A stretch of DNA of 36,771 nucleotides from Alphaproteobacteria bacterium. GTDB taxonomy: Bacteria > Pseudomonadota > Alphaproteobacteria > M2410. This document shows, piece by piece, positions 30,153 to 34,765 of the stretch. Within the stretch, counting starts at the first letter, position 1. Each line of letters opens with the position of its first letter. A model generated the notes under the pieces. It worked only from the letters and a program-made list of their open reading frames with translations, ran no database searches and was not told the DNA's origin. The DNA lies in NCBI GenBank assembly GCA_030614785.1, contig JAUWTJ010000040.1, positions 1 through 36,771 of the forward strand, in the 5' to 3' direction. The translations under genes were made by a program, and so were the position numbers.

Positions 30153-30185
30153 GAGGCCGCCCACAGTAGTCCCGTGAGCGGCCTC
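30153..30185 (-). other. Hairpin 18 bases after the receptor remnant
   Basis: GAGGCCGC (30153-30160) pairs with GCGGCCTC (30178-30185). It has no U-tract in the minus-strand direction; on the plus strand GGTGTTTTT follows. It resembles the hairpin after rpsD (about 24 of 31 positions) and lies at the same distance from the stop as the hairpin after the full receptor gene. Confidence 0.5.
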
Positions 30186-30203
30186 GGTGTTTTTCAGACT
30201 TCG

Positions 30204-30605
30204 CTAAAAGACATATTCCAGTCTGACAAAGCCGTTTATCCCAACCCCGGGCAAGCGCGCACCCGGTGAGACATCTGATCCGGCAATTCTGTTGTAACCG
30301 GCAAGATGATCCTCATACGCTTCATCCAGCAGATTCTCTACACCGGCATTCAAAAACATGTTCTCGCTGATGGTCCAGCCGGCAAAGAGGTTTACAATGG
30401 CGTAACCATCGGTTGGCGCCTCACTGTTGGTCACAGACACGCGCGTTTGCTCAGCGGCAATCTCGCCTTCACCGGAAACATACCAGGTTTCTGCATGGTA
30501 CGTCAGTCCGAGACGCCCCCGTAGCGGAGCTATCCGGTAGAAATCGCCGTCCGCGCCTGGGCAAGCGGATTGTCGGTGCGGGGGACGTGACCAGGACTCA
30601 AGGAG
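30204..30605 (-). pseudogene. TonB-dependent receptor, decayed C-terminal fragment
   Basis: The last 118 codons copy the end of the receptor at 32574 at roughly 92% protein identity (YRIAPLRGRLGLTYHAETWY onward, ending FVRLEYVF). Upstream the frame breaks. Receptor-like pieces ESWSR and RTDNPLAQA followed by DGDFYRIAP are in different frames, and beyond about 30605 similarity fades. The upstream barrel and plug are absent. The fragment has its own differences (for example MFLNAG for LYLNAG), so it looks like the remains of a diverged paralogue, not a fresh copy, although one 92-base block is identical to the intact gene. Confidence 0.85.
30445..30536. repeat. 92-bp perfect direct repeat, copy 1
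   Basis: Bases 30445-30536 are identical to 32815-32906, in the same orientation, 2370 bp apart. To the left (30204-30444 against 32574-32814) the alignment continues without gaps but with many substitutions. The abrupt identity suggests recent exchange between the copies. Confidence 0.85.
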
Positions 30606-30957
30606 GCCGGAAGGCGAAGAACGGGCGCATTTGACATTTCCCGGATCGCTGAAGTCCCGATCTCCCTCGATAGCGGACACCCAATGACCAGGATTTATCT
30701 TCCCCAAATAGCCACAAGCTGACATTTGGATCATGATAGTCTAGACTTCTCCTACTAGCAAAAAAGCGGACATCAGACCAGCAGGCTTCTTGTCAAAACC
30801 AGCTGGATATGCCCTGTCATTGAATCAAATCTGAACGAAAAAACTGTGGCCGATGAGGAATCCTGCTTCTATTCGCCGCCTTCACTATTACTGACCCAGC
30901 AGACAAGGAGAAATGGGATTTCGAGTCTCCGCGTCATCAAACTGAGATATTCTTTGT
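30606..30957. other. Non-coding stretch upstream of the synthetase-like gene
   Basis: I see no supportable gene here. Only tiny frames occur, for example a 13-codon frame at 30851 and a 10-codon frame (MGFRVSASSN) at 30913 that has AAGGAG two bases before its ATG, too close for normal initiation. I looked for a lasso-type precursor (30-60 codons with a Thr before the core) and did not find one. The DNA is AT-richer than the housekeeping regions. Confidence 0.5.
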
Positions 30958-32409
30958 ATGTACTATAATGCTGCAGTTATCCTTTATGGTGACACCCCAC
31001 CCGAAATACAGCTGAACAAGGTCCAGAAAAGATCCATAAACACTGCCGTTCTCGGGCAAAAGAAATCGCCTAACGTCACACAAATCAACATCACGGATGA
31101 AGAGGTTTCTTTTGATAGCCACTGGCTGACAAATCAACCACTTTTTGTTTTTACCGGCCGAAACAAAATGGTCATCGCACATGAGCTAAGCGTCATTTTC
31201 TCTCTTGCGCAGACAGAATTAGTCCCATCCAGGGAGGCTCTCCGCAGTTTCCTGGTACACGGGCCAATGTCGATCAATTTTTGTCCCTTTGATAATGTAG
31301 CAACCATCATGCCGGGGGATCGAACGGCGATCAGCTTGCAAACACAGAAACTCTCCATCAGCAAACAAACACGCCCTCCCGGTGTGGCGTTAGACACCAA
31401 TGAGATCGGCCCTCAACTTTGCCATTGCATTGGCAACCTCGTAGATGGTCGCGATGTTGCATTGGCTATCTCTGGGGGCATTGATAGCACGTTAATCGCT
31501 TCGCTATATCGACAGATGAATCCTGACAAGAAAATCGTAGGGTTTACGGCAGATACGGGGGCCGGAAACGATCTTCTTTTCGCAAGCAAGGTGGCGGAGA
31601 AACTGGATATCAAACTCATCAAAGTGAGTGTTCCGGAAGATGCTGACGCATTGATTTTGCATAGGGCGATGACAGCCTCATCGCTGTCACCCATGCCACT
31701 TACCGGAAATGCTATCGGGTTTGCTGCTATCTGCAGGACAGCTCGCTCTATGGGCTTTGACGCCATCCTTGATGGCAGTGGCGGCGATCAATTTTTTGGC
31801 GGTAACTCCCACATCCATGGAAGGTATTGGGCACTTGACAAACGTCAGGAAGGACACGTGGATAGAGTCCAACATTTCCTCGATTGGATAGATAGCAATA
31901 ATCTCGTTAGTACAAAGAATATAAAGTTGATGACTGAAGGTAAGTTGACTTTTGACTTTACCGAGAAAATGTATGAGGAAACGACCAGGGCCCATGCCTT
32001 CCAGTGGATTTATCAGCATTGTGCGAATGCAAAAGCTCAGGGAATAGACATATTGATGCCCTTCTTTGATGAGAAGATTGCAAACTTCATCCTCAACGAT
32101 CTGGACCATTTCTTTATTGACGGCATAAGCAAGGTTCCACTTCGGCGACTGCTTGAGAGGAGTGTCGGACGTGAAATTGCGTATCGAAAAGACAATCAGG
32201 GGCTGCGCTGGCCCGTACGTCGATTACTCGAGACCTGTCGGCCGGAAATCAGGCAGGCGATACGAAATTGCTCCTTTGGTTCTTCCTTTCTAATGCCAAT
32301 GGAGAGCAAACTCATCAGCAACATGATGTTAGGGAAGGGAAGGTTTGCGAGACTTTATGGGCTGGCTGTTCTTACTGAGATGATTGCGGAGCCACCTAAA
32401 TCTGATTAG
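30958..32409 (+). CDS. Asparagine synthetase-like ATP-dependent amide-forming protein lacking the amidotransferase Cys
   Basis: The 483-residue protein has the C-terminal asparagine synthetase fold. The ATP pyrophosphatase P-loop ALAISGGIDSTLIASLY is near residues 168-184, and ILDGSGGDQFFGG near 270-282. The N-terminal 150 residues resemble a reduced class II amidotransferase domain, but the protein starts MYYNAAV with no Cys2, so it cannot use glutamine in the usual way. This combination is typical of lasso-peptide cyclases (McjC type) and beta-lactam synthetases, which activate a carboxylate with ATP for ring closure. No lasso B-type protease or precursor is nearby. The gene is AT-richer than its neighbours and probably acquired. 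The ribosome binding site is poor; a stop four codons upstream in frame fixes the start at or after 30958. Confidence 0.75.
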   Translation: MYYNAAVILYGDTPPEIQLNKVQKRSINTAVLGQKKSPNVTQINITDEEVSFDSHWLTNQPLFVFTGRNKMVIAHELSVIFSLAQTELVPSREALRSFLVHGPMSINFCPFDNVATIMPGDRTAISLQTQKLSISKQTRPPGVALDTNEIGPQLCHCIGNLVDGRDVALAISGGIDSTLIASLYRQMNPDKKIVGFTADTGAGNDLLFASKVAEKLDIKLIKVSVPEDADALILHRAMTASSLSPMPLTGNAIGFAAICRTARSMGFDAILDGSGGDQFFGGNSHIHGRYWALDKRQEGHVDRVQHFLDWIDSNNLVSTKNIKLMTEGKLTFDFTEKMYEETTRAHAFQWIYQHCANAKAQGIDILMPFFDEKIANFILNDLDHFFIDGISKVPLRRLLERSVGREIAYRKDNQGLRWPVRRLLETCRPEIRQAIRNCSFGSSFLMPMESKLISNMMLGKGRFARLYGLAVLTEMIAEPPKSD

Positions 32410-32573
32410 ACGTTCCCCTTGTCTATTCTAGATCACAAGGAACCGATTACATCTTCAAAGCCGGTGCCTGACTTCCCTCTTCAAGCAGACGACGTCCCTC
32501 CTCATCAATCTCCGCCGCAAGGAGGGCCGCTCACCGTACTGCGATGAGCGACCACTTTGCGACTTGGGCCCAG
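32410..32573. other. Spacer with hairpin after the intact receptor gene
   Basis: No gene is seen. GGCCGCTCA (32525-32533) pairs with TGAGCGACC (32545-32553), allowing one G-U pair in the minus-strand RNA. It lies 20 bases after the receptor stop and is related to the hairpins at 30153 and 35338. It may end both the receptor transcript and the convergent synthetase-like transcript, but it lacks a U-tract. Confidence 0.45.
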
Positions 32574-34703
32574 CTAAAAGATATACTGAAGTCTCACGAA
32601 CCCATTGATGCCGCCGCCTGGCAGGCGAGCCCCGAGAGGAACGTCCGATCCGGCGACCCTGTTGTAACCCGCCAGATGATCCTCGTATGCCTCGTCCAGC
32701 AGGTTCTCTACGCCCGCATTCAGATAGAGGTTCTCGCTGATGGTCCAGCCGGCGAAGAGATTTACAATAGCGTAACCATCGGTTGGCGCTTCACTGTTGG
32801 TCACAGACACGTGTGTTTGCTCAGCGGCAATCTCGCCTTCACCGGAAACATACCAGGTTTCTGCATGGTACGTCAGTCCGAGACGCCCCCGTAGCGGAGC
32901 TATCCGATAAAGATCATCCTTGATATCACGCCGTTCTCCGCGAACCCATGACAGGCCCCCGTCGACCTGGACCCGATCCGACGCCATCCAGGAGAAATCC
33001 AGATCGGCACCAAAGAGCCTGGCATCAACGTTTTCAAATCTGAGCGGCGTCGGATCGCCGTTCATGCCCGACACCATTTCAACCGTGCTGTCGACAACGC
33101 CAACGGTGGTATCAAACGGAACACCCTGGATGAAGTCATCAATCCTGCGGTAGAAAATGGTTGGACGCGCAGTCAGCCGACTGAATCGAACGTCGGCTCC
33201 AAAATCTGCAATGAGAGCGGTCTCGGGTTTCAGCTCAAGATCGCCAACATAAGTGTTGCCGTCTGCAAGGCCCCCACTTGCCGGTGTTGGCAGCCAGGCA
33301 AACCGCTCGACATAGCCCGGCGCGCGGTTCTTGCGCGCCAGCGTTCCCCTGAGCGTCACCTGATCATTGATGTCGCGCCAGGACTGAAGCACAGCATCGA
33401 CAGTCGTGTCGTCCCATGTCCGGTCCTGCATCGAAAACGCCATGGCCAGCATCCCCGGCATCATGGGCACGCCCGGCCCTACAGTGGCAACACCGCTTTC
33501 CGCCGACAGATGATCCATGCGCAGGCCGATTTCAACACCGCCGGTGTCGGAGTCCCGGTACCATTCGGCAAAGAGGCCGCTTCGTTCCATAGTGATGTCC
33601 GGTAATGAGTTCAGGAAGAAGTCAGGATCGTTCGGATTGGTGATCAGGACATTGTGATCGTTCTGCTCATAATCCACACCCAGCCTCAGCTCGCCGCCTT
33701 TCAGTGGTTTTGTCAGACGCGCCGAGGCAGTCCTCGTTTCTCCGTCGGCGATCGTACGCCGCTGCTTCATCATCACAGGCGCAGGCCGAGACAGATAATT
33801 GGTCATGCCGTGACCGATATCAACGGACCCGAAGTCAAGGTTGATCCTGAATCCGTCAAATTCACCCTCATAAGCGGCCCTGGCAAAGTCGCCCTCGATA
33901 TATTCGATATCCATCGCAAAGGGTGGGTTACCTGTTTCACCTGTCTCATGACGCCTGAAATCGAAAGACAGGGAATGATGACCGTCGCTGGTTCGCACGC
34001 CAGCGCCGCCGCCCAGGACCTGCCGATCATGAAACGTATTGGCAATTTCACCATCCGGAAACTTGAGGTTGTCTCCCTCCTCCCGGGATCCCAACACATG
34101 AATGCGAAACTGGTCGTTTGATGTGCCCAGAATGCCGCCAAAGGCCGTGCTGCTGTCGGCCGAGCGGCCAATCAGGGTAAGATCCCCTGAGGTGACGAAG
34201 GTCGCCTCGTTTGAAAAACCCACTGTCTTGTATCGCGCGTTGACAGACCCAGCGAGGCCCGGTCCTTTTGAGACAGAACCGACACTGCGAGCGACATCCA
34301 GTGACGCCAAAAGCGTTGGCGGTGCATATTGCATTGCCGGGTCCATGAGATTTGGGCCGCCGGAGCCAAAACGCTGCCCGTCAACCGTTACATCGATGCG
34401 CGCACCGGTCAGCCCGCGGAATTGAACCTGACCGGACACGGCTCCATTGTTGATCAGGGCGCCTCCGGGCATCAGCGCAATAAGACTGGCAGAATCCGCC
34501 GCCTGCACCCGGACCGGCTCTATCCCGGCTTCAAGTTTTGTATCAGCTTTGCCGCGCCTGGCACCAACAACAATGATTTCTTCCAGTGTGTTCCCGTTGG
34601 AAACGGGGTTGGTTTCAGAGGCCATAGCTCCCTGAAAACCGGGCATCGCGCAGAGGGACAATCCAAGACCCAGAGCCCATGCCGAAGAGTTCGACGGTTT
34701 CAT
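32574..34703 (-). CDS. TonB-dependent outer-membrane receptor, probable copper type
   Basis: I start at ATG 34703 (709 residues), because AAGGAG lies six bases upstream. A signal peptide (MKPSNSSAWALGLGLSLCAM and on to about residue 30) is followed by a TonB box-like EEIIVVGARR, a plug domain (QVQFRGLTGARIDVTVDGQR, then NLMDPAMQYAPPTL) and a long beta-barrel ending in FVRLQYIF with terminal Phe. The MDP-x-x-x-Y-x-x-P segment and a Met-rich loop (VPMMPGMLAMAFSM) recall the OprC/NosA copper receptors, and the small upstream protein fits that reading. Metal choice is inferred. The 3' end is duplicated at 30204. Confidence 0.88.
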   Translation of the reverse strand: MKPSNSSAWALGLGLSLCAMPGFQGAMASETNPVSNGNTLEEIIVVGARRGKADTKLEAGIEPVRVQAADSASLIALMPGGALINNGAVSGQVQFRGLTGARIDVTVDGQRFGSGGPNLMDPAMQYAPPTLLASLDVARSVGSVSKGPGLAGSVNARYKTVGFSNEATFVTSGDLTLIGRSADSSTAFGGILGTSNDQFRIHVLGSREEGDNLKFPDGEIANTFHDRQVLGGGAGVRTSDGHHSLSFDFRRHETGETGNPPFAMDIEYIEGDFARAAYEGEFDGFRINLDFGSVDIGHGMTNYLSRPAPVMMKQRRTIADGETRTASARLTKPLKGGELRLGVDYEQNDHNVLITNPNDPDFFLNSLPDITMERSGLFAEWYRDSDTGGVEIGLRMDHLSAESGVATVGPGVPMMPGMLAMAFSMQDRTWDDTTVDAVLQSWRDINDQVTLRGTLARKNRAPGYVERFAWLPTPASGGLADGNTYVGDLELKPETALIADFGADVRFSRLTARPTIFYRRIDDFIQGVPFDTTVGVVDSTVEMVSGMNGDPTPLRFENVDARLFGADLDFSWMASDRVQVDGGLSWVRGERRDIKDDLYRIAPLRGRLGLTYHAETWYVSGEGEIAAEQTHVSVTNSEAPTDGYAIVNLFAGWTISENLYLNAGVENLLDEAYEDHLAGYNRVAGSDVPLGARLPGGGINGFVRLQYIF
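32815..32906. repeat. 92-bp perfect direct repeat, copy 2
   Basis: Identical to 30445-30536 and inside the intact receptor gene. Recombination between the two copies would remove 2370 bp, including the asparagine synthetase-like gene, and leave one full-length receptor. Confidence 0.85.
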
Positions 34704-34765
34704 AACATACTCCTTCACCCGCATGGAAATGCGGTGACAATCAAATTGGAAAATTGAAATGTGAC

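Follow-up and report, generated by a model that had tools for sequence, protein, structure and literature searches.

The gene examined here lies on contig JAUWTJ010000040.1 of an Alphaproteobacteria bacterium (GCA_030614785.1), of which positions 1 to 36,771 form the window, the whole stretch of DNA that was analysed. It encodes a relative of asparagine synthetases and stands beside a gene for a TonB-dependent receptor, which raised the question of whether it belongs to a lasso-peptide cluster, as a sequence-only reading had suggested, or performs another kind of amide chemistry. The single open frame (30958-32409, + strand), stop-free over 483 codons, gives a protein of 483 aa, P0001. PF00733 (Asn_synthase) is its one Pfam domain (E=2.6e-26; 93.6 bits at a gathering cut-off of 21), which places P0001 in the asparagine-synthetase superfamily. 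As that reading had noted, the motifs of the ATP site are present, namely the SGGIDST pyrophosphate loop (residues 172-178, 31471-31491) and DGSGGDQ (residues 272-278). The latter forms part of DGSGGDQFFGGN (residues 272-283, 31771-31806), which includes the DG[ST]GG motif. Motif comparison delimited a PLxGN motif (residues 247-251, 31696-31710) and an NQGLRW motif (residues 413-418, 32194-32211), and Lys392 (32131-32133) stood out by its conservation across the aligned rows; all these elements are on the + strand. The earliest cysteine of P0001 is residue 109, so the N-terminal nucleophile required for glutamine use is absent, likewise as noted before. Alignment and structure model identify residues 1-136 (30958-31365, + strand) as the remnant of a class II glutaminase, in which part of the glutaminase strands and sheet and the linker helix are kept and the Cys nucleophile is missing; residues 12-37 were modelled with low confidence. 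The gene was also confirmed to lie in an AT-richer stretch, with GC and third-position GC mostly below those of its neighbours. Its GC content is 0.45-0.50 in surroundings of approximately 0.51-0.61, and its third-position GC is 0.51 versus 0.62-0.68 in those seven measured neighbours whose identity is clear (TBDR, SDR, purF, radA, dnaB, DUF1287, and rpsD) and 0.52, 0.64, and 0.75 in three further unnamed ones. PADLOC gave no match for P0001 as a defence-system protein, and a literature search turned up no paper on its family, by which an absence from print is not proven.

The structure model of P0001 (pLDDT 81, pTM 0.85) displayed a complete asparagine-synthetase fold. It was built on 45 rows after 43 of 79 viral AsnB-like proteins had been taken into the fold alignment; an earlier model with a pLDDT of 42 was not used. 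The best fold matches were largely tied: carbapenam synthetase (1q19) and human ASNS both reached Z 22.8 and AsnB (1ct9) Z 22.2, while the beta-lactam synthetases ranged from Z 21.1 (1mbz) to 20.2. Structures of lasso C proteins were absent among the PDB matches listed, which excludes nothing. Pfam domain, fold model, and Cys position together bear out the description of P0001 as an amide-ligase fold without glutaminase. P0001 shares with AsnB the fold, the SGGxDS loop, and Lys392, but differs from the glutamine-hydrolysing enzymes in lacking the Cys nucleophile and the glutaminase domain, and with 86.7 bits it stays below the curated cut-off of 267.1 of the asparagine synthase model (TIGR01536, NCBIfam). 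Beta-lactam and carbapenam synthetases likewise consist of a synthetase without a working glutaminase, and P0001 has their overall fold. The catalytic Tyr of their Tyr-Glu dyad, which we take to be the middle residue of a GxG motif, corresponds to Ser274 in P0001, and the annotated ORFs around the gene included none recognisable as belonging to carbapenem or clavam synthesis. P0001 would be neither one of these synthetases nor a lasso cyclase, although the chemistry that we propose for it below would be similar to theirs.

Two orthologues were found, in the genomes G716 (Hyphomicrobium sp. Bin_30_7) and G1040 of the same genus. Searches with P0001 in overlapping genome samples returned the gene itself and distant amidotransferases in 2 of 96, 2 of 385, and 4 of 398 genomes (the last including G716), and one hit among 249 genomes in the order of G716, namely G716 itself. 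A profile of two rows found 2 of 103 genomes in the family of G716, which were G716 and G1040, and none of 78 genomes in another class. Scanning the genome contigs of the whole collection gave no relative in a first pass and the family protein L018 alone in a second. Both orthologous proteins are approximately 400 aa long, with the glutaminase region almost wholly gone, and they are 50% identical over the synthetase domain. The differences between them are distributed over the three codon positions as 163/125/262; at this level of protein identity the weighting to the third position indicates protein-level constraint and hence that the protein is maintained. Nothing is common to the surroundings of the two genes, nor does either share anything with the window. 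The G716 gene neighbours a DUF1499 gene, a CHAD gene, and, approximately 2.6 kb off, a serine recombinase gene. In G1040, an M3 peptidase gene lies 35 nt upstream, and a GNAT/TacA pair starts 23 nt downstream, followed by aconitase and household genes. The gene is an orphan without an operon in any of the three genomes. As judged by these comparisons, the P0001 family, with its three members, forms a branch of the asparagine-synthetase superfamily that is rare and mobile and lacks the glutaminase. A Hyphomicrobium island (L014:1480-5402) with a serine recombinase, a DUF2924 gene, and an ABC-3C-type protein was observed within approximately 7 kb of the orthologue.

The proposed link to lasso peptides was not supported. 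Of the hallmarks of a lasso C protein (NF033535; NF033561), P0001 shows the missing glutaminase Cys and a synthetase domain of the asparagine-synthetase type, but neither a B protein nor a precursor accompanies it. No PF13471 match was found anywhere in its own genome, which is 99% complete, in agreement with the earlier remark on the absence of a B-type protease; the domain is present in 28 of 282 good-quality genomes of the class. The NCBIfam lasso cyclase model gave 19.2 bits at a cut-off of 525, a threshold so strict that none of 142 class genomes passes it, lasso clusters included, and the low score alone therefore excludes little. The statement that no precursor is visible was also correct for frames of at least 20 codons, where the ORF listing starts: none in the window is plausible. 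The sole same-strand frame of this size that ends just upstream is a GTG frame of 40 codons (30846-30968), which overlaps the gene start by 11 nt in a coupling-like geometry; it has no Asp or Glu after residue 5 and no lasso-like core. In stretches of 17.0 kb and 11.1 kb around the two orthologues, the annotated ORFs included neither receptors nor B proteins; orthologues away from receptors had been named beforehand as an observation that would refute the lasso idea. The 35 and 23 nt flanking the G1040 gene leave no room for a precursor. Without B protein and precursor and with a low model score, a lasso cluster was rejected as the main reading. A TonB receptor next to an Asn_synthase gene that lacks the Cys is thus not necessarily the sign of such a cluster.

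The question of ancestry was approached by comparing P0001 with AsnB-like and lasso-C-type proteins. The lasso set consisted of C-type proteins adjoining B proteins (20 regions, of which 13 yielded a full-length C and seven none or a fragment). The Cys-less proteins L020, L022, L024, and L025 were moved to it from the AsnB-like set after the first tree; L020 adjoins a B protein, L022 lies approximately 2.2 kb from one, and L024 and L025 are lasso-type by the tree only. L006 and L013, which have long branches, were left out of the later trees and of the motif and residue counts, whereas L112, whose frame is broken, was left out of one tree and kept in the counts. The motifs PL.GN, DG[ST]GG, and [KN]QG[FL]R[WFA] occurred in five of five proteins (P0001, L018, L114, L002, and L012), in none of 25 other AsnB-like and in none of 17 lasso-C-type proteins; since they were picked after viewing the alignment, these counts describe rather than test. 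In a fresh check set of 79 viral AsnB-like proteins, PL.GN and DG[ST]GG were not found. L002 (genome G060) and L012 (G464) are full-length AsnB-like amidotransferases whose synthetase domain carries the same motifs as P0001, and their profile was the best two-row match to the P0001 family: in hhalign, the three family proteins reached 163 with it, while the scores ranged over 67-107 for three further AsnB pairs and over 33-83 for three lasso pairs. Among larger profiles, those of AsnB scored 179.8 with 24 rows and 131.1 with 4, and those of lasso proteins 125.9 with 13 rows and 100.9 with 4, so that the 24-row AsnB profile scored slightly above that of L002/L012, at unequal profile sizes. In the profile check called for by the sequence-only reading, neither the cut-off of TIGR01536 nor that of the lasso model was reached; the motifs and the comparison of profiles indicate a relation to AsnB-type amidotransferases. 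L002 (1054-2907) and L012 (829-2751) themselves represent a small AsnB-like subfamily, marked by PL.GN and DGTGGDE motifs. Their chromosomal contexts are unrelated, and no shared function was seen among their gene neighbours.

When a tree was built from the synthetase domains of 41 rows, P0001 and L018 grouped with L002 and L012 (98/97) inside the AsnB side (99/98). The join to L002/L012 fell to 69/93 when the third member was added, and the first full-length tree had placed the P0001 family between the lasso groups and the rest. P0001 was outside lasso C in the best trees, and AU tests did not reject the lasso placements (p 0.141, 0.155, and 0.093; 0.311 with the third member). With such unstable joins, the trees alone do not settle the placement, but they favour an origin from amidotransferases of the L002/L012 type. 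A cyclase of the lasso type or of another RiPP class, with a precursor from a distant locus as its substrate in trans, would fit the missing Cys and the common clade with lasso C that the AU tests allow. The second-best NCBIfam match of P0001, the albusnodin/ikarugamycin cyclase model (43.9 bits, far from its cut-off of 300), and the nearest plasmid match in tblastn, an Acinetobacter lasso C protein beside a B2 protein (E=1e-7), point the same way, and Gln278, which 2 of 17 lasso-C-type rows but none of the AsnB-like rows have, hints at a lasso-like site. We nevertheless regard such a cyclase as very unlikely, given the genome free of PF13471, the score with the lasso model, the missing space for a precursor in G1040, motifs separate from those of lasso C proteins, and Lys392, at whose position 12 of 17 lasso-C-type rows have Arg. 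In a plasmid lasso cluster of Acinetobacter indicus (L013:7441-9666, pB18-1), the C protein is annotated as 7-cyano-7-deazaguanine synthase, and the precursor may be encoded by the 126-nt gene that separates C from the ABC transporter. Two further Cys-less lasso-C-like proteins (L024:868-2808 in G007 and L025:835-2796 in G036) may likewise represent C proteins that have no B protein next to them; G007 has no PF13471 match at 1e-8, and the match in G036 lies on another contig than L025.

The active-site residues bear on the reaction that P0001 may catalyse. The SGGxD loop is kept in all three family members, and Lys392 is Lys in the three of them, in both L002 and L012, in 24 of 25 other AsnB-like rows, and in 4 of 17 lasso-C-type rows. 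With ATP loop and Lys392 intact, adenylation of a carboxylate is plausible, whereas the usual nitrogen source is impossible after the loss of the glutaminase. Within DGSGGDQFFGGN, the AsnB-invariant Glu and Tyr are replaced by Gln278 and Asn283 in P0001. The position of Tyr283 is Y in 25 of 25 AsnB-like rows and in L002 and L012, but N/S/S in the three-member family; that of Arg366 is R in the same 25 and two rows and L/L/H in the family, and that of Glu278 is Q/E/E. L002 and L012 thus differ from P0001 in retaining these Glu, Tyr, and Arg residues together with an N-terminal MCG glutaminase. Both orthologues lack Asp277 (GGGE) and may therefore not share the activity of P0001.

Enzymes related to asparagine synthetase are also found outside lasso clusters, as PMC13060819 describes for PesC and for the RiPP amidases TsrC and ScdTA. 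According to that paper, PesC is a nitrile synthetase with a Glu-Tyr dyad, of which the Tyr is essential and the Glu important, and it accepts ammonia in place of glutamine. P0001 differs from it in having no glutaminase and, by motif spacing, no dyad; the PesC residues were mapped to positions 278 and 283 by this spacing rather than by alignment. The replacement of its essential Tyr at position 283 suggests a changed chemistry. An ammonia-dependent amidation, by which P0001 would form a primary amide from a carboxylate of the L002/L012 type with free ammonia, is compatible with the PL.GN and DG[ST]GG motifs common to both groups and with the ammonia use described for PesC. It seems rather unlikely to us because the Tyr and Arg that are invariant in AsnB-like proteins are gone in all three members, which suggests a change beyond the loss of the nitrogen donor. 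These replacements, together with that of Glu278 in P0001 and of Asp277 in both orthologues, would suit a pseudoenzyme, either degenerate or regulatory, that stems from an acquired gene and has a synthetase on the way to inactivity, and the orphan position without an operon in three genomes would fit as well. The retained SGGxD loop and Lys392, the 483-codon frame without stops, and the constraint between the two orthologues argue against decay, and we consider a pseudoenzyme fairly improbable, even if the activity of P0001 could be weakened or lost.

The reading that we prefer, at somewhat less than even confidence, is that P0001 works as a stand-alone, AMP-forming amide ligase after losing its glutaminase and couples a small carboxylate with either an amine or free ammonia. 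P0001 would adenylate a small-molecule carboxylate, which an amine, less likely free ammonia, would attack instead of glutamine-derived ammonia, and the product would be an amide or lactam. The loss of Tyr283 and Arg366 throughout the family and the replacement of Glu278 in P0001 favour a changed nucleophile, that is, an amine, over ammonia-dependent amidation. The ancestors would have been glutamine-type amidotransferases like L002 and L012. Loss of the glutaminase elsewhere gave rise to beta-lactam antibiotics and lasso peptides, and the amide ligase, if correctly recognised, would add another, separate instance in which a relative of asparagine synthetases lost this domain. The wider proposal of a one-gene, horizontally moving family of amide or acyl ligases, which shed the glutaminase independently and would join a small carboxylate to a nucleophile by a chemistry not known from the superfamily, is possible but rather doubtful. 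With the three shared motifs, additional members and the substrate could be sought.

The position of the gene is explained by its landing site. The intact TonB-dependent receptor next door (32574-34724, - strand; 716 aa; PF00593, E=4.1e-34), correctly pointed out before, has the copper receptor model TIGR01778 as its nearest NCBIfam model, under the cut-off. A second receptor 3' end, which had been missed, lies on the other side of the gene (30204 to approximately 30546, - strand; offset 2370 nt) and has 90% amino acid identity to receptor residues 602-716. The identity between the copies is 60/60 at 30460-30519, drops gradually to 16/30 at 30190-30219, and ends abruptly near 30546; the receptor 3' end and the adjoining downstream stretch are thus present twice, at 30154-30546 and 32524-32916, and the gradient of identity between them is steep. 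A comparison of the copies over 112 codons gave pS 0.46, pN 0.04, and dN/dS 0.06. Such a low ratio, with both copies diverged as functional gene ends, indicates recombination between related receptor loci and not the decay of a recent duplicate, and the site, as its sequence suggests, is a recombination scar in the end of a protein-coding gene. The protein gene icd is a known example of a 3' end that serves for integration, and the P0001 site resembles such an event. No recombinase gene was recognised among the annotated window proteins, a subset of all window proteins. Orthologues of the receptor in two same-family genomes (47-48% identity) have other neighbours and no P0001-like gene beside them, and the receptor was rejected as a functional partner on these grounds and that of the duplicated 3' end. 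The duplicated 3' end accounts for the position of the gene; judged from these repeats, the receptor is an insertion neighbour, part of the landing site rather than of a cluster. Arrival would have occurred by horizontal transfer and recombination at the receptor 3' end.

The idea that a small conserved gene upstream of the receptor is a partner was given up, since BLASTP between the small proteins of the window and of genome G003 gave an E-value of 1.5. A phage origin was discarded after a protein search of 50,697 phage records without a match, a plasmid origin after a search that gave three weak places only, and a viral origin because the viral contigs contained no relative of P0001 or of P0001 and L018 together. 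The genome that carries P0001 contains a second Cys-less gene of the asparagine-synthetase type (L006:859-2556, contig C90:2080-3777), which encodes 565 aa with an MTGFAG start. Its ATP loop is degenerate (YGGEVEG), the product looks like a pseudoenzyme, and the gene adjoins a dihydroorotase-like gene, named by eye from its sequence.
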